In this document: piece by piece, positions 1,462 through 15,712 of the stretch
How the letters are laid out: each line of letters starts with the position of its first letter
Numbering within the stretch: position 1 is the stretch's first letter
Source of the DNA: a virus
Length of the DNA: 22,001 bases
Virus record (IMG/VR): IMGVR_UViG_3300031566_000413
Span: 1 to 22,001 of that record
Strand: one strand, 5' to 3'
Position numbers and translations under genes: made by a program
Notes under the pieces: model-generated
What the model was told of the DNA's origin: nothing
Databases searched by the model: none
The model's input: the letters and a program-made list of their open reading frames with translations, nothing else

Positions 1462-3204
1462 ATGGCCGAATACCCATCTAACAGTGCGACCCCCGTATAT
1501 TATGCAGAATTCAGACAGAAGGTACTTGCGGGCGAACTCCCCATTTGCCGAGAGATCTCCTTAGAGATGAATCGAATAGATCGTCTTATAGAGGATCCCA
1601 GATATTACTATGATCCGGCTCCAACGGAGGCCTTTATACGGTTTTGCGAGAACGAACTCACAAAGACCGACGGATCGTCGTTAAATGTCCTGGATTCGTT
1701 TAGACTATGGGTAGAGCAATTGTTAGGTTGGTATTATTGGTCTAAAAGAAATGTCTATAACGAGGAAACCAAGGACTTCGAGGAACAGATATATTTGAAA
1801 CGTTTGGTTAATAAGCAGTATTTAATAGTGGCTCGTGGTGGAGCTAAATCGATGTATGCCGCCTTTATACAGGCATATTTTCTGGTCGTTAGCGGTGAAA
1901 CAACGCATCAGATTGCAACGGCGCCAACCATGAAGCAGGCAGAAGAGGTCTTAGGCCCAATACGGACGGCTATGATTCGTCGACCCGGCCCACTTCTCAA
2001 TTTCTTAACGACGGAAATGAAGGGACTTAATTCAAGTCGTTCTAACTATAATACGCAACTTGCTGCTACCAAAAGGGGTATTGAATCATTCATTACTAAT
2101 TCACTTTTAGAAATTCGTCCTATGACAATTGATAAACTACAAGGGTTAAGACCAAAGATCTCAACATTGGATGAGTGGTTGTCGGGCGATATTCGTGAAG
2201 ACGTCGTCGGCGCCGTTGAACAGGGGGCTTCTAAGTTAGAAGACTACATTATTGTGGCCGTAAGTTCAGAAGGTACTGTTCGTAATGGCTCTGGAGACGA
2301 GGTTAAGCTTGAACTGAAGAAGATTCTTAATGGAGAATACATAGATCCACACACATCCATATTCTACTATAAAATAGACGATGTAAGTGAGGTTGGAGAC
2401 CCCGCTATGTGGATTAAGGCGCAGCCAAACATTGGTATTACCGTGTCCTATGAGGCATACCATAAGGATGTACTTAGGGCCGAGAACGCACCGTCTACCA
2501 GGAATGACATCCTTGCTAAACGGTTCGGATTACCTATGGAAGGTTATACATATTTCTTTACATATGAGGAAACTATTCCACACGAGAACGTGGGATCCTT
2601 TGCTGACATGGAGTGCGCCGTAGGCGCGGACCTATCTCAAGGGGATGATTTCTGTTCATTTACCTTTATGTTTCCATTTCATGAGGGACCGTTCGGGGTT
2701 TTGTCTATAAATTTTATCTCAGATAGGACTTATAGACTTTTACCTGCAGCTGCTCGATTTAAATACGATCAATTCATAGCAGAAGGTTCCCTTATCGTTA
2801 TGGAGGGGAGTGTATTAGAGATAGATGAGGTGTATTATGTCTTGGATGAGGAGATAGAGAAAAGAAGATTCGAGGTTATGGCCATGGGATACGATCCCTA
2901 TAATTCCGAGGTCTTTGTTAAGCTCTGGACTCAAAATTACGGACCCTTTGGGGTTGAGGTAGTTAAACAGGGTGTTAGAACAGAGTCGGTTCCTCTCGGA
3001 GAACTTAAGAAACTCTCTGAAGATAGGATGCTTTTGTTCGATCAAGAGATCTTTAGTTATGCGATGGGTAATGCTATGGTTATGCAAGACACAAATGGTA
3101 ACATAAAACTATTTAAGCGTCGATACGAGCACAAGATAGATCCAGTAAGTGCTGCAATGGATGCTTATGTAGCTATACAAAGGAATCCGGAGATTTTCAA
3201 ATGA
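1462..3204 (+). CDS. terL: Terminase large subunit
   Basis: This 580-residue protein is the ATPase-nuclease motor that translocates DNA into the prohead and cuts it. The N-terminal ATPase half shows a Walker A-like loop VARGGAKS (residues 123-130), which ends in the usual K-S but has Ala where a Gly is normal. It is followed by the adenine/coupling segment TAPTMKQAEEV and a Walker B site STLDEW (234-239, with D237 and E238). The nuclease half has the RNase H-like acidic residues in GADLSQGDD (D390), GYDPYN (D478) and the C-terminal helix KIDPVSAAMDAY (D560 or D567). The length is normal for the family. The gene starts 3 bases after the upstream stop with only a weak AGGGG, suggesting coupled translation, and its stop overlaps the next ATG. 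Confidence 0.95.
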   Translation: MAEYPSNSATPVYYAEFRQKVLAGELPICREISLEMNRIDRLIEDPRYYYDPAPTEAFIRFCENELTKTDGSSLNVLDSFRLWVEQLLGWYYWSKRNVYNEETKDFEEQIYLKRLVNKQYLIVARGGAKSMYAAFIQAYFLVVSGETTHQIATAPTMKQAEEVLGPIRTAMIRRPGPLLNFLTTEMKGLNSSRSNYNTQLAATKRGIESFITNSLLEIRPMTIDKLQGLRPKISTLDEWLSGDIREDVVGAVEQGASKLEDYIIVAVSSEGTVRNGSGDEVKLELKKILNGEYIDPHTSIFYYKIDDVSEVGDPAMWIKAQPNIGITVSYEAYHKDVLRAENAPSTRNDILAKRFGLPMEGYTYFFTYEETIPHENVGSFADMECAVGADLSQGDDFCSFTFMFPFHEGPFGVLSINFISDRTYRLLPAAARFKYDQFIAEGSLIVMEGSVLEIDEVYYVLDEEIEKRRFEVMAMGYDPYNSEVFVKLWTQNYGPFGVEVVKQGVRTESVPLGELKKLSEDRMLLFDQEIFSYAMGNAMVMQDTNGNIKLFKRRYEHKIDPVSAAMDAYVAIQRNPEIFK

Positions 3205-4439
3205 GTTACTTTGGTTTACACCTACAAACACCAATAAATGAATGGGATAGTGAGTTACTTTACGCAGCCGAGGAAGGAAAACCATACAGATTGGCTAAGT
3301 TCTTTTGGGTCGAAGCGGGAATAGTTGTAAAACATGTATCACCAGCGACAGTAACCGTTTTTAGACATTACTGGGCTCATCAGCAGCCTTTCCTGGACAG
3401 AGCACTCGTCTCGCCTATGGAGGCGGATGCGGCCGCCGACCAGTACATCGCAATGTTTAAGGATTCTGTAAATCAACATGGAAACATTGATTATGTTGAA
3501 TCTTTAAACGAAACCTATCCATCAAGAGACTTACTTGCGCAACAAAAGGCCGTTGCATTTGACAGAGCGTTCATTCGCCGACTTAAAGTACACTGCCCAG
3601 CTACGAGACCGGTGGTGTATAATGCTCCACCAGGAAACATTGACCACGACGAGTATGCAGTTCTGATTGACTTAGCCAGAGATTGCGAGGCGGCCGGAGG
3701 AGCATTCGGTTACCATAACTATTGGAGTGTTGTCAATAAACATAGTTACGTAGGTTCTCCTGGACACGCGCGCGACTATCAAATGAGATGGTCGGATACC
3801 CTCGACGAGTATCTAGTAGATAGAGGGATTAGAGTTAACTACATCTTGGGCGAAAGCGGTCCTATTGGGGCCGGGCCAGATGGATACTGGCAAAAACCTA
3901 ATGACGGTTGGAAGATGTATACCGTTTGGGATGGAGATATAGACGGTTATATGAGTGATCTTGTGACTATGGAGGAACTATTTGGGAGTTCTAGGGCAGC
4001 AGAAGAGGGTCGTTTAATAGGTGCTACATTGTTTACTAGTGGCAACGGAATTGGTTGGGAGAACTTCTTAGTTGACTTTCCTCTTCTTGGTCGTATAACT
4101 GATCATGTAATTAACTATAGTGGACAAACTGGTCCGCTGCCTCCATTACCACCAATAGTAGATGAGTTTGAAGAAGCCGCTTGGAACCTCACTACTGAAA
4201 TGCAGAGAACTGGTCAAAATGGTATTAGATTGAACGCCCTTGCGGGAATTCAACAAAGGATTAAGCAGGATAATCGCATAGATCGGACGGATTATCAGAT
4301 CGTAACCTCAGAAGCACAGCTTATCGACTTCACGGTGAACAAGACTGTGCAGGCAGCAGAGTCGTTGAGCGGTACCTTTCCTCGGCGTGTGTATGTTTGG
4401 ACGCCAGGACAGGAGATATACTATTATGAAAATCCTTGA
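3201..4439 (+). CDS. TIM-barrel glycosidase-like endolysin part
   Basis: This 412-residue protein looks like a (beta/alpha)8 glycoside hydrolase of the GH-A clan type. NE at residues 103-104 (ESLNETYP) fits the acid/base position at the end of strand 4, YHNYW (171-175) is an active-site aromatic stretch, and E218 in LGESG fits the nucleophile on strand 7. A proline linker (312-318, PLPPLPP) leads to a C-terminal module (about 320-412) rich in AAWNLT, LNALAGIQQRI and RVYVWTPGQEIYY. From memory that module also occurs in bacterial proteins that carry an M23 peptidase afterwards. No signal peptide is visible, so export would need a holin. The frame stops at TGA 4437-4439 but remains open after it into an M23 domain, so this may be the short product of a bifunctional lysin. 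The substrate (peptidoglycan or another surface glycan) is unknown. Confidence 0.7.
   Translation: MSYFGLHLQTPINEWDSELLYAAEEGKPYRLAKFFWVEAGIVVKHVSPATVTVFRHYWAHQQPFLDRALVSPMEADAAADQYIAMFKDSVNQHGNIDYVESLNETYPSRDLLAQQKAVAFDRAFIRRLKVHCPATRPVVYNAPPGNIDHDEYAVLIDLARDCEAAGGAFGYHNYWSVVNKHSYVGSPGHARDYQMRWSDTLDEYLVDRGIRVNYILGESGPIGAGPDGYWQKPNDGWKMYTVWDGDIDGYMSDLVTMEELFGSSRAAEEGRLIGATLFTSGNGIGWENFLVDFPLLGRITDHVINYSGQTGPLPPLPPIVDEFEEAAWNLTTEMQRTGQNGIRLNALAGIQQRIKQDNRIDRTDYQIVTSEAQLIDFTVNKTVQAAESLSGTFPRRVYVWTPGQEIYYYENP
4411..4428 (+). promoter_or_regulatory. Shine-Dalgarno and ATG inside the glycosidase end
   Basis: AGGAG at 4411-4415 is 10 bases before an ATG at 4426-4428, a good initiation site overlapping the last codons of the glycosidase gene. 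Translation from it runs in the frame +1 relative to the M23 domain and ends at a TAA at 4510-4512 after 28 codons. It could serve the M23 domain only with a -1 shift or if one base is missing upstream of about 4463. One more G in the run 4458-4460 would join this start to the M23 frame. Confidence 0.4.
4437..4439 (+). other. In-frame TGA between glycosidase and M23 domain
   Basis: This TGA, followed by A, is the only stop between 3201 and 4902 in this frame; the combined frame would encode 567 residues with TGA as codon 413. An 8-base spacer is followed by a small stem, ACCCA 4448-4452 with TGGGT 4457-4461 around a CGCT loop. TGA ends many other genes here in ATGA or TGATG overlaps, so it is a normal stop in this genome and not a reassigned codon. 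Confidence 0.7.
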
Positions 4440-4924: not shown

Positions 4925-5764
4925 ATGTCTAAAAAAGATAAACCGATTATCCTAGCAGTCAGTAGTGACCAACATGCCGGCTCAACTGTGGGCCTCTTTC
5001 CATCTTCTATTACTCTAGACGATGGGGATCAGCATCGCCCAAGCCCAGCTCAGAAATGGATGTGGCGCAACTGGCTGTTTTATATTTCAAAAGTTAAATC
5101 ACTCGCGGCCGATTACGATACTAAATACATTGCGGTTCTTGATGGTGATGTGATAGAAGGAAACCATCATCGAACAGCACAGGTTGTTTCAAGCAACGAA
5201 ACAACCCAAATGCGCATAGCAGAAGCGGTATTGAATCCGTTATTGCAAGACGCGGACCAAGCATATTTCCTTCGCGGTACGCCCGCGCACGTTGGAGAAC
5301 AAGCAAGATTAGAGGAAAAAGTAGCCGAGAATTGGACTAATACAGTCAAAGACGGTGAGAATTTTACCCGTTGGCAACTAATGTTGGATGTCAACGGCAC
5401 CATATTTGATATTGCACACCACGGTTCAATTGGACGTTTACCCTGGACCAAGACAAATTCAGTCGGTAAAATAGCAGTTGGAGCTATTATAGATGCCTAT
5501 GAAAACTTTAAAAAAATTCCAAACGTTGTAATTAGAGCCCATTTTCATCAGTATATAGACTCTGGTGAGAATTTTAGACGAATTAGAGTTATTGGCATGC
5601 CCGCCTGGCAACTTATTACTGGATATGTTAATAAGAATAATCCTGGCGCAGTTGCCGATATAGGAGGTCTTATATTTGTGTGTTGGCCAGATAAAACTTA
5701 TGATTTAGATGTGGTTCGGTTTTTCCCTAGACCTTCCCCACCGGTAAGGGTTAGATCATCATGA
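4925..5764 (+). CDS. Calcineurin-like metallophosphoesterase
   Basis: This 279-residue protein has the two-metal phosphoesterase motifs in order: SDQH (D15, H17), LDGDVIEG (G74, D75, E78), RGTPAHVGE (117-125) replacing the usual GNH block, a HH pair (165-166) in AHHGS, and HFH (206-208). These are metal ligands of the calcineurin superfamily, which hydrolyses phosphomono- or diesters; the phage members have no agreed substrate and could act on DNA ends or nucleotides. AGGAG at 4910-4914 is 10 bases before the ATG. The gene lies 20 bases after the M23 frame and overlaps the next gene by ATGA, so it belongs to the late operon. No signal peptide is seen, so it acts inside the cell. The superfamily is secure; the role is not. 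Confidence 0.85.
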   Translation: MSKKDKPIILAVSSDQHAGSTVGLFPSSITLDDGDQHRPSPAQKWMWRNWLFYISKVKSLAADYDTKYIAVLDGDVIEGNHHRTAQVVSSNETTQMRIAEAVLNPLLQDADQAYFLRGTPAHVGEQARLEEKVAENWTNTVKDGENFTRWQLMLDVNGTIFDIAHHGSIGRLPWTKTNSVGKIAVGAIIDAYENFKKIPNVVIRAHFHQYIDSGENFRRIRVIGMPAWQLITGYVNKNNPGAVADIGGLIFVCWPDKTYDLDVVRFFPRPSPPVRVRSS

Positions 5765-6316: not shown

Positions 6317-9300
6317 ATGGCCACCCTCAATAAAACATTTCCCTTTGCCACGACTCTTGAGGGATTCACCGGAGTACCCTTTGGCACTTCAATGACCATG
6401 TCTTATGATGGTACTTATGGTAATCCTTCGGGTTCGTTAAAATCGCGAAACGTAGGCAGAAACAAAGCAGGAACGTCATACTGGGAGTGGACCGGAACCT
6501 GGGAAGATTTAGGTATAACTCCTGGAACCACAATAGACCAGGTAAGAATAAATAACGGGGATAATCAGTGTACAGAATGGAATGTTGGTGACGCCGCCAC
6601 CATTGGTCCATATTCTATTTATAACTCTGCGGGAGACGTTCTCATAGCTACTTTATGGGCCGGAAGATCTCCCACGGGCGTAGAAGGAAGCTGGACCTCG
6701 ATAGGTAATCAAGCCTATCAAGCAATTGGCGCCTCGTATCAGGCTAGTAATACTAGCATTAGAATACGTCTGTACAATACTTCCGATCTTGGTAATAACC
6801 CAGCTGCGGCACAAACATTTTACGACGATAACATATCCTTAGATATTGATTATGTAGCCGGGTCAGATGACTTAACGGCTGTCGGCATCACCGCTAATCC
6901 GGTTGTAGGAACGCCAGCTATTGGTCAAGAACATGTCCTTACAGCGGCTGGCATTACTGCTAATCCGGTTGTAGGAATACCAGTTCTTCTTCTTATATTT
7001 ATCTTGACATCTGTGGGAATCCTAGCTACTCCGGTACTAGGTACGCCGACTATAACTCATATTCACGTCTTAACGGCGACGGGTATCACAGCTGATCCGG
7101 TTGTAGGAACGCCTACCCTGAGTTCTGGATCGGCAAATTCCCCAGTAAGAGAGCAGAACAAAGACCATTGGTTTAGCGGTGATTTACCTGATACTGTGGC
7201 ATTTGATGAGGCCGTAACCGAAGGGTCGCTTTTGGTTGTGTGTTTTAGCGGGTACTTAAATTCCAGTACAAACGCGATTACTATATCTGACGATAAAGGA
7301 AATACCTGGCAAGCTGCAGAAGAGGGGTACTCTAACGGCTCATCGATGGCTGGTATTTGGTATGCGAAAAACGCGGCCGCCGGGGTCACAACTCTTACAA
7401 TTAATGATACTGAAGATCAGACGTGCTTCTTGCTGGTTGTTTTAATTGAGTATAGTAATGTAAATACAACAGCACCGATTGATCAGAGTAACGAAGCAAT
7501 CGCGAACAGTGCAAGCTGGGACAGTGGAGACGTAACAACAACACAGGCAGATACTGTATTAATTGGTGTAATGGGCCAGGACTCCGCCACCCGCACATTA
7601 ACAGAAGATTCTCCCTGGGTTCTAATCTTTAAGGAAGAAGACCAGGGTAGTTATACTCCGATATCGGTGAGTGAGATAATTGCCACGTCTACACTTACAG
7701 ATGCTTATACTGGTGAAATGGATGGCATCGCTATGTGGTATTCGGCTGTGGTGGCATTCAAGGCGGCCTCAGCAACTGACGACCTTGTCGCCGTCGGTAT
7801 CACAGCTAATCCAGTTGTAGGCACACCCACTCTTACTCGTATCTCTAATTTAACGGCGACAGCTATTACAGCTGATCCAGTTCTTGGAGTTCCTACAGCA
7901 GCAGAAGAGGGCGGGAGTCCTGCTGGTGTTAAAGTAGCCACAACCAGAGTTGCTTGCAAAACGACTACTGGACTCCAAACCATTACCACAACTGATCTTG
8001 GTGGTCTGACACCTACCGCCGCTCTGCTGATATGCACGAATGCAACCGCTGACGGAACAGCAGCAGATCACGCTAGAATATCGATAGGTGCTGTTGTTAG
8101 TGCAACTGAGCGATGGGCAATTAGTTCTAATGACGATCATGGCGTAGCTACAGCCTTATCGGTTAGGAGAATGACCGAAGACGAAGTTGTAATGATGGTG
8201 GCCTCTGGTGGTGGAGGCACTGTTGAATTTGAGGCCGACTTCGATTCTTGGGTAACAAATGGGATGGTTATAGATTGGGGTTCGACTAACCCTTCTAGCG
8301 GCTATCTACTGACCGTCATCTTCTTTGCGGGTTCTGACGTGGTTGCCCATGCTGATACTGTGTCACTACCAGCAACAACGGGGGTAAATACGGATGTAAC
8401 GGCTCCTGGATTTGAGCCAGCTTTTGTGATTTTCGCTAGTACTAGATCAGCCATAAACGACGAGGTGAACACCAACTTTGCCCTCAGTTTTGGAATTGCC
8501 GCCAATGATGGCGCTGATACAAACTTTTCTCTCAACCTCTCTGGTGCAAATAGCGCACTGACTAGCGAAAATGCTGTTCTCGCGATCAACGATAGTATTC
8601 AAGAAAACCTTTTTCAAGGAAACGTCTATGGCGGTCATTATGTGGATACTTATGACGCAGACGGATTTACTGTTCGGTGTATAAGAAATGGTGGTGGCGA
8701 TTCGCCGTATCTTGCTATCGGATTCGGTGGTGCGGTAGATGTTTGGCTTGGTGACATTTCGACTCCTATTAGCACAGGGGACGATGTGGAAACTGGCCCA
8801 GGATTTACACCGCAAGCCCTTATCGGCGGGTTAAATTATTCTAGTTCCGGTTTCCAAGGTGGAGCGACTCCTTCAAATGACGTTGAATCTATCTATTCAG
8901 CAGGGATTGGAATAGCAACGCCAACTGCCGAGTATAGCAACGTCGTTACGTCCGAAGATGCCGCTGACACAATGAATACTCAGTCGTTATCTGATGACGT
9001 TTTTGCTAATGTTCAACCGCATATAGGTGGTACGGCTCAGGACATTGTTGGCACAGGGCCAGCGGGAGCAGGATCGTTTGACGCCAGTGGGTTTACATTG
9101 AACTATTCGGCAGTTGATGTAGTAGATAATCACCCGTTCTTCGTTCTGGCGATTGAGGCGGAGAGTGATGGTGACAACGATCTTACTGCTGTCAGTATCA
9201 CAGCTAATCCGGTCTTAGACACGCCCTCAATAGGGCAAAAACACCTCTTAACGGCTACGGGTATCACAGCTAACCCGGTGCTTGGAACGCCGACTATAGG

Positions 9301-10411
9301 TCGAATTTCCAACCTAAACCCCGTCGATATTACTGCTAATCCGGTCCTCGGAACCCCGACTATAACGCATATTCATGTATTAACTGCTACAGGTATTATT
9401 GTTAACCCGACACTTGGTACGCCAGTTTTGGGTGCAGAAGGAGAAGATAGTCTTGAAGCTGTTAGTATTGTTGTTAACCCGGCACTTGGCACTCCCGCGC
9501 TCGCGCAAGAGCACGCCCTAGGCGCTGTCGGTATTACAGCCGACCCAGTAGTCGGAACGCCGTCTATAGAACGTATATCCAACTTAACGGCCACAGGTAT
9601 TACAGCCGACCCAGTAGTCGGAACACCGACTATAGGACGGATACCAAACTTAGATGCTGTCGATATTGTCGCCAGTCCCGTGCTTAGTGTACCAACCGTG
9701 AGCCGGGTTTCTAATCTAATCGCGGTTGGTATTACAGCTAATCCGGTGTTAGATACACCGTCTATAGGCCAGACGCACGTCTTAGATGCTGTCGATATTA
9801 TTAGTACTCCGGTCCTTGGAACACCGGTTTTAGGCTCAGAAGGAGAACATACTCTTGAAGCTGTCGGTATAACATCGGATACAGTAGTCGGAACTCCAGC
9901 GATAGGACAGACACATGTGGTGTCATCCGTTGGAATTTCAACAACTCCTGTGACCGAGACCCCAACCATAGCGTTGGTTCATATATTGAATGCGACTAGT
10001 ATTACAGCCACCCCGGTAGTTGAAGAGTCAGCGATAGGACAGACACACGCGCTATCACCAACTGATATTACAACAACTCCTGTTGTGGGTGCACCGATAC
10101 TGAGTCCCATTTGTCATCTAGACGCGACCGATATTACAACAACCCCAACGGTTGAAACCCCAACGATAGGACAGACGCATGTATTAGACGCGACGACTAT
10201 TATCGTTTCGCCTATATTTGGTGTCCCAACGATAGGACAGACGCATGTTCTTAGTGCGGAGGGGATAACAACTACTCCAGAACTCGGGGTAGCTAGTTGG
10301 GAATTGGTTGATGGTGAAGTCATTGTAACATTCAGTGCCTTTCCGTCCCCAATGTTGTTTACCGTTCTTCAACCCGAAATTGAATTTAGTAAAGTATACA
10401 CGGAGGATTAA
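6317..10411 (+). CDS. Large repeat protein, probable virion surface fibre
   Basis: This 1364-residue, beta-rich and mostly acidic protein has no enzyme motif. An N-terminal beta-sandwich-like domain (about 1-185) is followed by four 22-residue repeats (186-269) with consensus LTAxGITANPVVGTPTIGxxHV. Next come a globular domain (about 270-488, containing DDKGNTWQAAEEGY and GIWYAKNAAAGVTTLTI), two more repeats (490-533), and a region (about 534-953) that seems to hold three related beta domains. Seventeen repeats (956-1328) precede a short tail. The DNA period is 66 bases. AAGGAG at 6303-6308 is 8 bases before the ATG. Length, repeats and neighbours (lysis genes before, small structural genes after) suggest an adhesin or head or tail fibre. 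Without a known receptor-binding domain this remains an inference. Confidence 0.7.
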   Translation: MATLNKTFPFATTLEGFTGVPFGTSMTMSYDGTYGNPSGSLKSRNVGRNKAGTSYWEWTGTWEDLGITPGTTIDQVRINNGDNQCTEWNVGDAATIGPYSIYNSAGDVLIATLWAGRSPTGVEGSWTSIGNQAYQAIGASYQASNTSIRIRLYNTSDLGNNPAAAQTFYDDNISLDIDYVAGSDDLTAVGITANPVVGTPAIGQEHVLTAAGITANPVVGIPVLLLIFILTSVGILATPVLGTPTITHIHVLTATGITADPVVGTPTLSSGSANSPVREQNKDHWFSGDLPDTVAFDEAVTEGSLLVVCFSGYLNSSTNAITISDDKGNTWQAAEEGYSNGSSMAGIWYAKNAAAGVTTLTINDTEDQTCFLLVVLIEYSNVNTTAPIDQSNEAIANSASWDSGDVTTTQADTVLIGVMGQDSATRTLTEDSPWVLIFKEEDQGSYTPISVSEIIATSTLTDAYTGEMDGIAMWYSAVVAFKAASATDDLVAVGITANPVVGTPTLTRISNLTATAITADPVLGVPTAAEEGGSPAGVKVATTRVACKTTTGLQTITTTDLGGLTPTAALLICTNATADGTAADHARISIGAVVSATERWAISSNDDHGVATALSVRRMTEDEVVMMVASGGGGTVEFEADFDSWVTNGMVIDWGSTNPSSGYLLTVIFFAGSDVVAHADTVSLPATTGVNTDVTAPGFEPAFVIFASTRSAINDEVNTNFALSFGIAANDGADTNFSLNLSGANSALTSENAVLAINDSIQENLFQGNVYGGHYVDTYDADGFTVRCIRNGGGDSPYLAIGFGGAVDVWLGDISTPISTGDDVETGPGFTPQALIGGLNYSSSGFQGGATPSNDVESIYSAGIGIATPTAEYSNVVTSEDAADTMNTQSLSDDVFANVQPHIGGTAQDIVGTGPAGAGSFDASGFTLNYSAVDVVDNHPFFVLAIEAESDGDNDLTAVSITANPVLDTPSIGQKHLLTATGITANPVLGTPTIGRISNLNPVDITANPVLGTPTITHIHVLTATGIIVNPTLGTPVLGAEGEDSLEAVSIVVNPALGTPALAQEHALGAVGITADPVVGTPSIERISNLTATGITADPVVGTPTIGRIPNLDAVDIVASPVLSVPTVSRVSNLIAVGITANPVLDTPSIGQTHVLDAVDIISTPVLGTPVLGSEGEHTLEAVGITSDTVVGTPAIGQTHVVSSVGISTTPVTETPTIALVHILNATSITATPVVEESAIGQTHALSPTDITTTPVVGAPILSPICHLDATDITTTPTVETPTIGQTHVLDATTIIVSPIFGVPTIGQTHVLSAEGITTTPELGVASWELVDGEVIVTFSAFPSPMLFTVLQPEIEFSKVYTED
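6872..7123 (+). repeat. Repeat block 1: four 66-bp units
   Basis: Units begin at 6872, 6938, 7004 and 7070, each encoding 22 residues of the form LTAxGITAxPVxGTP. The second unit has lost its tail (VLLLIFI), and the third carries TITHIHV, which recurs in block 3. Confidence 0.9.
7784..7909 (+). repeat. Repeat block 2: two 66-bp units
   Basis: Units begin at 7784 and 7850 and encode LVAVGITANPVVGTPTL and LTATAITADPVLGVPT. They link two globular regions of the fibre-like protein, which suggests that the repeat acts as a spacer. Confidence 0.85.
9182..10300 (+). repeat. Repeat block 3: seventeen units of about 66 bp
   Basis: Units start at 9182 and continue to the last at 10250. Fifteen of the first sixteen spacings are accounted for by 66 bases except two units of 72 bases (those ending in LGAEGEDS and LGSEGEHT), which exactly explains the 1068-base distance. 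Two neighbouring units share 29 identical bases (9530-9558 and 9596-9624), so duplication has been recent in places. Later units are more diverged, with ITTTP replacing ITANP. Confidence 0.9.
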
Positions 10412-11178: not shown

Positions 11179-12420
11179 ATGCCAAGTTTTATGGATAGAC
11201 TAAAACTCTCTTATAACGTACTTCGTAGTAAGGGACCAGCAGTCGCACCAACCCAAATGGTATTGAGCGCTTCACCTTCTTCGGTTTATAGTGGTCTTAC
11301 ATATAGTACTGAGGCGTCGGTTTTAGCACCGATAAAAACTCGTATTGCTATGGATGCTGCGAACATTCCGATGCGTCATGTATTGGTCGACGAAAGAAAA
11401 CAGTATCTGGAAGATAGGACAAGCGAACTTAACGATCGTCTTACTATCATGGCCAACATCGATCAAACAGGAATTGCTTTTATCCAAGATGCAGTAATGA
11501 CGCTTCTTGAAGAAGGTGCTTGCGCTTTGGTTCCAATTGAGATAAGTGGATCACCGGATTCTGCTACTTACGAGATTTTGTCTATGCGGGTGGCCAGAGT
11601 TGTGGAATGGATGAACTATTCTTTAAGAATAGAGGTGTATAACGAGTTGACAGGATCAAGAGAGGAAAAGGTTCTACCTAAGTCCTTTATGGCCGTTTGT
11701 TATAACCCGTTGTATGCTGTTATGAATGAGCCCAATGGTACTTTAAGACGACTGGTTCAAAAGCTGGCCCTTCTTGATCAAGCGGATGGTCGTCTGTATA
11801 GTCCACAGTTGGACCTCATTCTTCAACTACCATTCACTACTAAGACTTCTCGTAGACAGACAGAAGCAGACCGAAGATTAGAAAGCCTGGAGAATCAACT
11901 GTATGAAAGTAAGTATGGAATCGGATACATAGATCCTACAGAGAAAGTAACGCAGTTGAATCGTCCAGTTACAAACACATTAGCTGACACAGTTGATGGC
12001 CTAGTGTCTAGTTTGCATAGTCAGTTGGGATTGACCCCGTCGATCTTCGCTGGCACAGCCTCACAAGAAGAGATGTTGCTCTATTACAATAGAACAATAC
12101 TTCCTGTCCTAAACGCATTGACAGGTGCGATGATTGGGGCCTTCTTTAGTAGGACAGCGATTAGACAAGGCAACTCTGTTATGGTTTTCCCAAGTTTGTT
12201 CAAAATGGCACCTCTTGAGGCATTTGCAGATGCGGCTGATAAGCTCACTCGTAATGCAATTGTGTCCTCTAATGAGGTTAGAGCGGTGGTTGGAATGCCT
12301 CCGCATCCAGATCCGGACGCGAACGCCCTAAGGAATAAAAATCTTAACCAATCCGATCAGGGTCTACCCGGGCAAGAACAAACAGAGAAACCGCCAGACA
12401 ATGTAGAGAAAAAGGAGTAA
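11179..12420 (+). CDS. Portal protein (HK97-like)
   Basis: This 413-residue protein would form the dodecameric ring at the head vertex through which DNA enters. The order fits the HK97-type portal: an N-terminal arm, a segment APIKTRIAMDAANIPMRHV, a wing with RVARVVEWMNY, the stem and crown region with GYIDPTEKVTQLNRPV (residues about 253-268), HSQLGLTPSIFAGTASQEEMLLYYNRTI, which is typical of the C-terminal helices, and TRNAIVSSNEVRAVVGMPPHPD near the end. The last 30 residues are polar and Gln/Glu/Pro-rich. AAAGGAGG at 11167-11174 is a very strong ribosome site but only 4 bases from the ATG. It is followed 4 bases later by the protease-capsid fusion, the usual head order. Confidence 0.9.
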   Translation: MPSFMDRLKLSYNVLRSKGPAVAPTQMVLSASPSSVYSGLTYSTEASVLAPIKTRIAMDAANIPMRHVLVDERKQYLEDRTSELNDRLTIMANIDQTGIAFIQDAVMTLLEEGACALVPIEISGSPDSATYEILSMRVARVVEWMNYSLRIEVYNELTGSREEKVLPKSFMAVCYNPLYAVMNEPNGTLRRLVQKLALLDQADGRLYSPQLDLILQLPFTTKTSRRQTEADRRLESLENQLYESKYGIGYIDPTEKVTQLNRPVTNTLADTVDGLVSSLHSQLGLTPSIFAGTASQEEMLLYYNRTILPVLNALTGAMIGAFFSRTAIRQGNSVMVFPSLFKMAPLEAFADAADKLTRNAIVSSNEVRAVVGMPPHPDPDANALRNKNLNQSDQGLPGQEQTEKPPDNVEKKE

Positions 12421-12424
12421 ATTA

Positions 12425-14407
12425 ATGCCAAATTCATATGACTTTAGTGGTATTGCCACTGCATATGATGTTCTATGTCAAGACGGGCGAATTATTATGC
12501 CCGGAGCTTTTAACCACCAAGAGGGAGAAGTTATCCCTATGGTATGGAGACACGGACATGATGACATTCGAAATACTCTTGGACATGCGATTCTAGAAGC
12601 TAGTGAATCACCGGCCGGTATGCGGATTAAAGCATTCTTTAATAAAACCGATGAGGGCCAGCGCGCTAAGATTCTTGTTCAAGGTAAAGACATTCGTCAT
12701 TTGTCCATTTGGGCTCATAAATTGACTGAGAACCCAGCTATGCATGATGGCAAACAAGTTAGACAAGTCAGACTGGGCACTATTAGAGAGGTTAGTCTCG
12801 TTTTCGGAGGAAAGAACCCCGGTGCCTATATCGATGACGTCGTAAGACATTCGAACGATCCGCTAGATCCAGACGGAATAGTCGAGGACGGAATTATCAT
12901 CCACACGATTTATGAGGTCGAGGTTGAAGAACCCCAGCCCGAACCAGAGGTCGAGCCGGAACCCCAGCCCGAACCAGAGGTTGAGCCGGAAGAGACCGAG
13001 GATGGAATTCAACACGAAGACGAGACTGTAAGGGATATTTTGAAGACCCTTAACTCGGATCAGCAAAACTTATTCAATATCATCCTGCACGCGGCCGCGT
13101 TGGGAGAGAAAACACCCCCCACAAAATCTAGCGGCGAAGAAGGTGCTGGACCCACGGTTAGAGAGGTATTTGAGACCCTTTCTGACGAACAAGCAAATGT
13201 ATTGTATTATATGGTCGACGGAGTCGACCCAGAACAAAACGTATCACAAGGAGATTCCGACCCTATGCCAAAAGACACCCACAACATTTTCGAGAAAGAT
13301 GGTAACGAGAAAGACGAGACTGTTCTAATGCACGAACAGGCGTTGAACGTTCTCGCCAACGCCGTTAAAACACGCGCTTCGTCATTGAAGGGCGCTTTTA
13401 TGGCTGCGGAGGAAACCCTTTCTCACAGTATTACTGATATTGACTTTATGTTCCCCGACGCGAAGAACGTCGAGGCTGGTGGACCACAGTTCTACTCCCG
13501 TCCAATGGAATGGGTCGAGAGTGTTCTTAACGCCACTAAGAAAAGACCCTTCTCTCGTATTAAGAGCATGTATGCTGACCTGACTGGTGCGGACGCCCGC
13601 GCGAAAGGTTATGTAACTGGTAATGAGAAGGTCGAGGAAGTGATCGCTGTATTGAAGCGAGTTACGACTCCTCAGACCATCTATAAGCTCCAGAAGCTTG
13701 ACCGGGACGACATCATCGACATCACAGATTTCAACGTTGTGGTGTGGCTGAAAGGCGAAATGCGGATGATGCTTCGAGAGGAGCTTGCTCGCGCTATTCT
13801 GATCAGCGACGGACGTGCAGATACTGGCGATGATGCCATCATCTCAACAAATGTTCGGCCGATCTATAATGATGCTGCGGTTTATAACGTTCGCGCCATC
13901 TATAATGATGCTAGCAATGAGACAGCTGTTACCGCGATGACCGACGCTGAAGCATTGGCGTTCATCGATTTCATTGCTAATCAACGTCAGTACTACCGTG
14001 GCTCCGGTAGCCCCATATTATATACCCAGCCCGAGGTATTGAGCCGCCTGCTTCTGATTCGTGATACCGACACTCATCGTATCCATCGCACTGAGGCGGA
14101 ACTCGCTTCCGCAATGCGTGTTAGTGCTATCGTTGAGGTACCTCCAATGTCCGGAATGTCCGAGGCGGGTCAGGTCAATCCTGCGGGACTTCCTGCGGGA
14201 ACTTACACCATCGAAACCGTTGGCGTTATTGTCAATTTGAACGATTACGTCATTGGTATGGATTCTGGTGGACAAACGGCTTTCTTTGATGACTTCGATC
14301 TTGACTTCAATAAGTACACTTACCTGTACGAAACTCGGCTGTCTGGCGCTTTGGTAAATCCGAAGTCCGCTATCACAATCGAGAATGTCACGGCGAAGAC
14401 CGCATAA
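12425..14407 (+). CDS. Prohead protease-scaffold-major capsid fusion protein
   Basis: This 660-residue protein joins three head functions. Residues 1-150 are an HK97-family (S78) prohead protease: WRHGHD (41-46) holds the catalytic His and IREVSLV (S124) the Ser. Residues about 155-280 look like a scaffold: an acidic Pro-Glu tandem repeat, then two related helices, TVRDILKTLNSDQQ (from 201) and TVREVFETLSDEQ (from 244). Residues from about 281 (MPKDTHNIFE) are the HK97-fold major capsid protein, with ending sequences FDLDFNKYTYLYETRLSGALV. Such fusions are known in some siphoviruses. AAAGGAG at 12411-12417 serves the fusion start with 7-base spacing. An internal Shine-Dalgarno site and ATG at 13265 could give free capsid protein of 380 residues. 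Confidence 0.9.
   Translation: MPNSYDFSGIATAYDVLCQDGRIIMPGAFNHQEGEVIPMVWRHGHDDIRNTLGHAILEASESPAGMRIKAFFNKTDEGQRAKILVQGKDIRHLSIWAHKLTENPAMHDGKQVRQVRLGTIREVSLVFGGKNPGAYIDDVVRHSNDPLDPDGIVEDGIIIHTIYEVEVEEPQPEPEVEPEPQPEPEVEPEETEDGIQHEDETVRDILKTLNSDQQNLFNIILHAAALGEKTPPTKSSGEEGAGPTVREVFETLSDEQANVLYYMVDGVDPEQNVSQGDSDPMPKDTHNIFEKDGNEKDETVLMHEQALNVLANAVKTRASSLKGAFMAAEETLSHSITDIDFMFPDAKNVEAGGPQFYSRPMEWVESVLNATKKRPFSRIKSMYADLTGADARAKGYVTGNEKVEEVIAVLKRVTTPQTIYKLQKLDRDDIIDITDFNVVVWLKGEMRMMLREELARAILISDGRADTGDDAIISTNVRPIYNDAAVYNVRAIYNDASNETAVTAMTDAEALAFIDFIANQRQYYRGSGSPILYTQPEVLSRLLLIRDTDTHRIHRTEAELASAMRVSAIVEVPPMSGMSEAGQVNPAGLPAGTYTIETVGVIVNLNDYVIGMDSGGQTAFFDDFDLDFNKYTYLYETRLSGALVNPKSAITIENVTAKTA
12931..12990 (+). 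repeat. Tandem 30-bp duplication in protease-capsid linker
   Basis: Two adjacent 30-base copies differ by one base (C or T). They encode the Pro/Glu run PQPEPEVEPE twice, in the acidic region between protease and scaffold helices. The near identity points to recent slippage or duplication of a flexible linker. Confidence 0.9.
13248..13267 (+). promoter_or_regulatory. Internal ribosome site and start for free capsid protein
   Basis: AAGGAG at 13248-13253 is 11 bases before an in-frame ATG at 13265-13267. The product would begin MPKDTHNIFEKD and run to 14407 as a 380-residue capsid protein. Separate capsid proteins of this family often begin with Met and then HNVFE or similar, from memory, so the ATG falls where an unfused capsid gene would start. 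Confidence 0.5.
13850..13912 (+). repeat. 36-bp-period duplication in capsid gene
   Basis: The 27-base copies at 13850-13876 and 13886-13912 differ at four positions. They encode NVRPIYNDA and NVRAIYNDA, 12 residues apart, in the capsid domain after the helix with REELARAILISDGRAD. The last 15 bases (ATCTATAATGATGCT) are identical. Confidence 0.8.
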
Positions 14408-14408
14408 G

Positions 14409-14723
14409 ATGGCTAAATTCTGGGGTAAAATAGGTATTAATCGCGGTGCTGTAGAAGGCGCTCCAGGCATATTTACACCCACCATTGAGGAGGTTGAAGT
14501 ATCTGGAGAAATGCGGCTTATAGGCGCGCGATGGTCAAATCATGAACTTGGAGACTCGGTCTCAGCAAAACATGTTCTTAGTATAATTACCCCCGAAGAC
14601 TCAACAATTGATTTTACAGAGGTCGTTTATATTGTTTGGCAGGGCCGAAACTGGTCCGTACGCACCATACAGTATAAGCGACCTCGCGTAGAACTGACTC
14701 TTGGGGGTAAATACAATGGATAA
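14409..14723 (+). CDS. Head closure-type neck protein
   Basis: This 104-residue protein begins MAKFWGKIGINRG, then APGIFTPTIEEVEVSGEM, VSAKHVLSIITPED, then WQGRNWSVRTIQYKRPRVELTLGGKYNG. This is the shape of the small beta-barrel neck protein that follows the capsid gene in many siphoviruses and closes the portal channel; relatives usually begin MGKWYGKIGYA and end LxxGGxYNG. I chose the ATG at 14409, just 1 base after the capsid stop, over an in-frame ATG at 14385 within the capsid gene, because of that N-terminal match. Translation is probably coupled to the capsid gene. Its stop overlaps the next gene by 8 bases. Confidence 0.8.
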   Translation: MAKFWGKIGINRGAVEGAPGIFTPTIEEVEVSGEMRLIGARWSNHELGDSVSAKHVLSIITPEDSTIDFTEVVYIVWQGRNWSVRTIQYKRPRVELTLGGKYNG

Positions 14724-15048
14724 CAACACAACACGACTTACATTACACTCTCAGTTGGAGGCAGCGTTTCCGGACCTACCGATATATTATAGTCCTCCCG
14801 GAAACTTAGAGCTGTCTTATCCATGTATAGTTTATGAACCCAAGGCAGAGGAACCGACTTGGGCTAGTAACAAACCATATACTATTGGAACCCGATATCA
14901 GGTCGCGATTCTAAGTGAGCTTCCTGGTTACGCCAATAAAAGAGCTATATTTGATATAGACTGGATTGTTATCTCTGGAAATCGGTCCTATACTCACGAA
15001 GACATCGTTCACGATGTTTTTACTTTATCCATAAATTCAATAACATAG
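14716..15048 (+). CDS. Tail terminator-like or tail completion protein
   Basis: This 110-residue protein has HSQLEAAFPDLPIYYSPPGNLELSYPCIVYEP at the N-terminus, then TRYQVAILSE and a C-terminal pair of strands ending VFTLSINS. The SYPCIVYE stretch and order match the short protein that follows head closure in this phage module, thought to cap the tail tube at the neck. The start is the ATG at 14716, with GGGGG at 14703-14707 eight bases upstream inside the previous gene; an upstream in-frame TTG at 14701 is less likely. It ends in TAG within the TAGGAG ribosome site of the major tail gene. Confidence 0.75.
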   Translation: MDNNTTRLTLHSQLEAAFPDLPIYYSPPGNLELSYPCIVYEPKAEEPTWASNKPYTIGTRYQVAILSELPGYANKRAIFDIDWIVISGNRSYTHEDIVHDVFTLSINSIT

Positions 15049-15061
15049 GAGAAAATAAACT

Positions 15062-15712
15062 ATGGCAATCCTAACTTGGGGTGCATCCGCAGATAAGAAA
15101 TACGAATCTGGTGTTGATCGCGGTGTACTATATATGAAATCCGCCGGGACTTATCCCGCCGGCGTGGCCTGGGAAGGTCTTATCAGTGTTACCGAGAAAC
15201 CCGGGGGCGCTGAGGTGACCGATCTGTGGGCTAATAATGAGAAGTACGCGGCATTGGTCGCTACAGAGACGTTTGAAGGATCTCTCGAGGCATACACATT
15301 CCCCGACGAGTTTCTTGAGGCGATGGGGATGCTTGAGCATACCACCGACCCCGGTGTTATTCTCGGTCAGCAGACTCGCGGTGAGTTCGGCCTTTCTTGG
15401 CGAAGTCGCGTGGGAAGTGATGCTGAAGGATCCCAGGCTAACTATAAGCTTCATATTGTGTATGGTTGTCTTGCTAAACCCTCCGAGGTTCAGCACTCAA
15501 CCGTAAATGATTCACCCGAAGCCGTTACGTTCAGCTGGGATTTCACCACGACTCCGGTCGCGGCCACCGGCTTCTCCTCGCTTTCGAAGATCACTCTTGA
15601 TGAGTCGGTTCTATCGGCTCCGAACTTGGCAGCGCTGCAGGAGGCATTGTGGGGCGGTACAGGATCTGCTGCGCTTCCTTTGCCAAACGCACTATTCGCC
15701 CTCTTAGTTTAA
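15062..15712 (+). CDS. Major tail protein
   Basis: This 216-residue protein would polymerise as the tail tube. It opens MAILTWGASADKKYESGVDRG, then YPAGVAWEGLISVTEKPGGAE and EAYTFPDEFLEAMG. Next come GVILGQQTRGEFGLSWR and KLHIVYGCLAKPSE, NDSPEAVTFSWDFTTTPV and a C-terminal LAALQEALWGG and LPLPNALFALL. Each block recalls major tail proteins of Firmicutes and Actinobacteria siphoviruses. AGGAG at 15047-15051 is 10 bases before the ATG. The codon choice is more GC-rich than in most neighbours, like the capsid gene, as expected for an abundant product. A hairpin follows the gene and may set its level against the chaperones. Confidence 0.9.
   Translation: MAILTWGASADKKYESGVDRGVLYMKSAGTYPAGVAWEGLISVTEKPGGAEVTDLWANNEKYAALVATETFEGSLEAYTFPDEFLEAMGMLEHTTDPGVILGQQTRGEFGLSWRSRVGSDAEGSQANYKLHIVYGCLAKPSEVQHSTVNDSPEAVTFSWDFTTTPVAATGFSSLSKITLDESVLSAPNLAALQEALWGGTGSAALPLPNALFALLV

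Follow-up and report, generated by a model that had tools for sequence, protein, structure and literature searches.

Bacteriophages lambda and Mu have an in-frame start inside the protease gene (lambda C and Nu3, Mu I and Z) which gives a shorter protein sharing the C-terminus of the longer one, and this common C-terminal part can bring the protease into the prohead. In retroviruses (Gag and Gag-Pro-Pol) and herpesviruses (UL26 and UL26.5) the protease also enters the particle on a variant of a structural protein; frameshift or readthrough puts the protease at the C-terminal side in retroviruses, while herpesviruses use a nested transcript and a scaffold. HK97 gp5 has a fused delta (scaffold) domain, and the protein described here resembles it in having the HK97 fold and an N-terminal extension that is expected to go on maturation, whereas the protease of HK97 is encoded by a separate gene and is here fused upstream of the capsid.

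The closest described proteins are those of phrog_3270, 'major capsid and protease fusion protein' (actinobacteriophage clusters AM, AU, BI, DJ and CC and Lactococcus phages of the 1706 type), which belong to the same protein family and have the same gene order as our locus. We found 248 phage records matching the fusion protein, the match covering 80% or more of the query in 232 cases, and among the matches listed the identity to phage relatives was at most about 44% in the best segments and about 40% over the whole length. The fusion itself is already published, being described in PMC5513430, where it was compared with the HK97 and lambda fusions, and in PMC5679793. The nested start, to the extent that the sources were accessible, is mentioned neither in the records nor in the literature searched, and nothing that we found there describes a capsid start inside these genes: the word 'internal' is absent from the main text of PMC5513430 as far as it was available, and in the available part of PMC9671378 the term 'internal start' refers to lysins alone. 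None of the 21 annotated phage loci has a nested CDS annotated, each having one full-length CDS. In phage 1706, orf10 is annotated as 'head maturation protease', and a note in the ReqiPoco6 record gives 1706 gp13 as 'major head protein', which is a major tail protein in the current 1706 record.

The sequence analysed (the window) comprises 22,001 bases, positions 1 to 22,001 of virus record IMGVR_UViG_3300031566_000413. The features in and around the fusion gene are as follows.

11179-12420: portal gene, directly upstream of the fusion
12412..12417, + strand: AAGGAG, Shine-Dalgarno (SD) sequence of the fusion start, 7 nt upstream of the ATG at 12425 (from the sequence)
12425..14407, + strand: fusion CDS of 660 aa opening with ATG; S78-type prohead protease, helical repeats and HK97-fold major capsid protein
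12482..12841, + strand: Peptidase_S78 (prohead protease) domain, residues 20-139 (Pfam PF04586, E 1.8e-5)
13028..13099, + strand: helical hairpin 1, residues 202-225, putative scaffold-like repeat (predicted helices; role inferred)
13157..13219, + strand: helical hairpin 2, residues 245-265, a copy of the family-conserved TVxDVFDxLxEEQKxVVY motif (predicted helices and alignment; role inferred)
13248..13253, + strand: internal SD, AAGGAG (from the sequence; equivalent found in relatives)
13265..13267, + strand: internal start ATG, codon 281, in a predicted disordered linker (from the sequence, relatives and structure prediction)
13265..14407, + strand: putative nested CDS, major capsid protein alone, 380 aa, beginning MPKDTHNIFE (comparative start-site evidence; HK97 fold)
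13508..14395, + strand: region predicted as HK97 fold, residues 362-657 (structure models)
14385-14723: DUF7253 gene, downstream of the fusion
14701-15048: tail terminator gene, downstream of the fusion
15062-15712: major tail gene, downstream of the fusion

The window thus has the gene order of the phrog_3270 family, with the portal upstream and the connector and major tail genes downstream. At the N-terminus of the fusion, PF04586 scored 25.4 bits, above the gathering score of 21, the protease part was modelled confidently across residues 6-139, and H43, S94 and E122 were invariant among the 25 N-terminal parts compared; S78 enzymes use His, Ser and acidic residues of this kind. The domain is followed by an acidic low-complexity linker, in which we also observed an in-frame repeat, EPQPEPEVEPEPQPEPEVEPEE (12932-13000). 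A helical motif, TVxxVxxTLxxxQ, occurs twice in the window gene (13028-13219), L002, L008, ReqiPepy6 and Hydrus and once in most relatives, and it may be a scaffold element. A second disordered stretch is predicted at residues 268-301, between the helical segments and the capsid domain. The phrog_3270 match to the fusion reached E 8e-166 with its best stretch at residues 234-657, and Foldseek searches with the full-length and the 380-residue models matched the shells of HK97, GTA and actinophages, with a best E of about 1e-9 to 1e-10. Solved structures offered no close relative from which to place the mature N-terminus, the best sequence match having an E of 0.14.

The initial annotation had proposed that AAGGAG at 13248-13253 and the in-frame ATG at 13265 form an internal start at the beginning of the capsid part, and both elements are present as described, separated by 11 nt, with the ATG at codon 281 of 660. 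Judged in the window alone, the site is no more than chance: its anti-SD pairing of -8.5 kcal/mol is only joint second among the 34 in-frame ATG, GTG and TTG codons of the gene and is beaten by that of a TTG at codon 410, the spacer is long and the SD unexceptional. We therefore dropped the window-only reading as evidence, and the case for an internal start rests on the relatives.

The first set of relatives contained 61 viral contigs found with the whole protein, 22 phage loci (21 annotated), and 80 genome and 80 viral contigs found with the capsid alone, one of the latter being already included; the capsid-only search patterns lay in the capsid body and not at the start, and the site played no part in selection. 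Including the window and excluding L084 (RRH1 type) from the family set, there were 243 ORFs, with 189 representatives at 80% identity. Protease and capsid lie in one frame in 235 of the 243; of the remaining eight, seven have their start at the edge of the stored stretch, and the last is L162. A start-type codon was present at the homologous site in all 238 assessable ORFs (ATG 214, GTG 22, TTG 2; 168, 19 and 2 among the 189 non-redundant sites), just before the capsid NxF motif in an otherwise unconserved linker, and it shifts with local indels relative to that motif. The other five ORFs (L003, L038, L058, L108, L203) are truncated ahead of the site, and nine sites were set by hand after the anchor had missed or misplaced them (L030, L061, L047, L053, L139, L140, L165, L226, L116). 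As a background rate, an in-frame NTG occurs in only 22-23% of six-codon windows of the same genes. Named phages of Arthrobacter, Gordonia, Streptomyces and Lactococcus have the internal site. A second set of 104 loci, fetched with both halves of a split case (see below) plus two genome matches, gave a start-type codon in 99 of 99 assessable loci; five were cut (L276, L283, L305, L335, L355), four sites were set by hand (L262, L264 and L296 by eye, and L253), and six of the 104 have a 60-nt context identical to the first set. Fused genes made up 98 of the 106 loci classed in this second analysis. The internal start as initially proposed would have been refuted by close relatives that lack the site although their fusion is intact, and in neither set did we find such a loss. 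With the relatives included, the internal site is far beyond chance.

A rival account is that only the 660-residue fusion is made, so that every shell subunit has a protease and self-cleavage in the prohead gives the mature capsid protein, with the conserved Met and the acidic residues marking a linker or a cleavage site. The single frame of protease domain and capsid in 235 of 243 ORFs agrees with this, and some RRH1-like fusions have no junction start, so one-to-one fusions may be viable. However, amino-acid selection cannot account for the codons used, since all 24 non-Met residues at the site are start-type (Val is GTG in 22 of 22, Leu is TTG in 2 of 2), and on this evidence we rejected a conserved Met kept as a protein feature; over the 21 non-redundant non-Met cases the product of the codons' own gene usage is 10^-15.3. 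At six other Met-rich capsid columns, Val was GTG in 0 of 3 and Leu was TTG in 7 of 118, and the replacements were Leu, Ile, Phe and others. On the capsid tree (187 rows) at least 15 changes among ATG, GTG and TTG are required. We also considered capsid column 510, where NTG follows SD-like DNA in 126 of 187 rows, as a start-like site, and rejected it because its Gly-rich protein sequence explains the pattern and its non-Met residues are mostly Leu (TTG in 3 of 22) or Phe; it was used as a negative control. Mean anti-SD pairing at the internal site (-9.86 kcal/mol) was stronger than in synonymous recodings (-8.40; Wilcoxon p 4e-14), and 2725 other in-frame ATGs averaged -3.83 kcal/mol. Part of this SD signal arises because the acidic, A-, G- and Gly-rich peptide itself favours SD-like DNA, and on average 38% of the synonymous recodings pair at least as well as the real site. 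Folding energies showed a sharp structure minimum around the site, at the codon itself, and mRNA openness relative to synonymous recodings had a z of +0.81 +/- 0.06 at the site (n 189) and of -0.13 to -0.30 at five other offsets. These p-values ignore relatedness and are hence inflated, and only the tree change count corrects for kinship. It follows from this comparison that selection maintains the internal start codon together with its SD and the weakly structured mRNA around it. A fusion made as the only product leaves unexplained the SD pairing and the openness above the synonymous expectation, as well as the movement of the start codon with indels relative to the NxF motif, and we regard it as very improbable. 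We give still less credence to the idea that the internal SD is a translational pause that aids folding of the protease before the capsid domain, the start codon being incidental: the SD-like sequence does fall at a domain boundary, but a pause needs no start codon, yet ATG, GTG or TTG stands at all 238 sites, and the mRNA structure is minimal at the start codon itself.

A further reading is that the internal start is used but weakly, the fusion predominating and a lesser share of plain capsid subunits sufficing to relieve crowding in the prohead; it is a quantitative variant of the two-product explanation and does not exclude it. The computed SD in the 21 annotated phages speaks for it, the fusion start (-10.55) being stronger than the internal start (-7.66). 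Against this, SD pairing alone is a poor predictor of initiation rates, translating ribosomes hold the internal site open, and a shell built mostly of 660-residue subunits would, as we infer, leave little room inside. We consider weak use unlikely, though it remains a real possibility.

Our preferred reading is that one gene gives two products, the protease-scaffold-capsid fusion and the plain capsid protein, to which we assign a probability of roughly 0.88 on sequence evidence, without expression data. Initiation at 12425 would yield a 660-residue subunit with the maturation protease and the scaffold-like helical segments N-terminal to the capsid subunit, and initiation at the internal SD and the ATG at 13265 only the major capsid protein, of 380 residues. 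We infer that the two products assemble together by means of the capsid domain they share, which would bring the helical segments and the protease, riding N-terminally on some shell subunits, into the prohead; there the protease would sever the linkers and, by inference, release itself. Both products appear to matter, because the reading frame of the linker is kept (235 of 243 ORFs in the first set; 98 of 106 fused in the second) and the start codon and SD are not drifting. Were only the nested product needed, stops and frameshifts should build up in the linker, and instead the frame is kept; were only the fusion needed, the start codon and SD should drift, and no drift was seen. The nested products proposed in the initial annotation are thus supported by the conserved site and by the codon, SD and mRNA-structure evidence, whereas the excess of capsid protein that it also proposed has not been demonstrated, no relevant virion proteome having come up in our searches. 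Two further points count in favour of the two products: the position of the site in a predicted disordered linker, and the split gene described below. An excess of plain capsid protein over the fusion is only inferred, and the computed SD strength does not favour it.

One genome bin contains what appears to be a natural split of the fusion into two genes (L250:2214 and L162:1-82). L162 has an in-frame TAA 18 nt upstream of a GTG, followed by AAGGAGG; the capsid ORF has only six codons before this GTG, which is the codon homologous to 13265 and the start of the separate capsid ORF. The protease part is found on the other contig of the same bin as a 255-codon open frame with its stop just past the hairpin motif. 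The junction is unseen, each contig breaking off no more than about 90 nt from the split, and no second capsid match was found in the L162 genome bin. We found no support for an intron having caused the split, neither piece having an Rfam match; with the contigs ending so near, an unseen insertion or an assembly fault is still not excluded. A search for more splits among 391 genomes of the same class gave three matches, namely the known split and two long open frames (581 and 573 aa).

We also checked six fusions of RRH1-type small phages, which, like those of Arthrobacter AN, appear unrelated to the present family; RRH1-type phages were absent among the matches listed for the window fusion. 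RRH1 (L084:5258, SD GGAAGGA) and Rahul (L244, codon 307) have a clear ATG with an SD at the protease-capsid junction, Yank and Adaia have weaker candidates, and none was found in the fusions of SallySpecial and Whytu. A fusion can therefore work without a junction start, and we rejected such a start as a universal rule for protease-capsid fusions. In addition, the accessible part of PMC5513430 states that Maggie gp7 has little or no similarity to the AM and AU fusions.

The initial comparison with lambda C and Nu3 is sound as logic, a conserved second ribosome-binding site and an in-frame start lying inside a protease gene here as well, but it does not extend to the nested product. In lambda and Mu this product is a scaffold, which is lost from the particle, whereas here it is predicted to be the HK97-fold major capsid protein, and protease, helical segments and shell protein form one polypeptide. 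The window gene thus works like the lambda C/Nu3 type and is not a member of it. Unlike in retroviruses and herpesviruses, separate initiation would here add or omit an N-terminal protease. We think it probable that in a widespread phage lineage the protease is delivered on a fraction of the shell subunits which is set by two competing starts. Such control of protease dosage, in a gene entered in the public records examined as a single fusion, would likely be the mirror image in bacterial viruses of Gag/Gag-Pol control. If true, this would explain how phages with a one-piece protease and capsid gene avoid one protease per shell subunit, the major capsid protein annotation of a large family (248 matching phage records) would be corrected, and a ready system would be at hand for studying what sets the protease copy number per prohead. 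Judging from their sequences, phages with the nested start are probably able to produce shell protein of which not every copy carries a protease.

Elsewhere in the window, a 1364-aa ORF between terminase and portal (6317-10411) had no Pfam or PHROG match, and likewise the ORFs at 3201-4439 and 4925-5764. In the aligned rows, where the window is without it, an extra C-terminal capsid domain of roughly 70-80 residues was observed in the actinophage loci L062-L073, L075, L076 and L081-L083.
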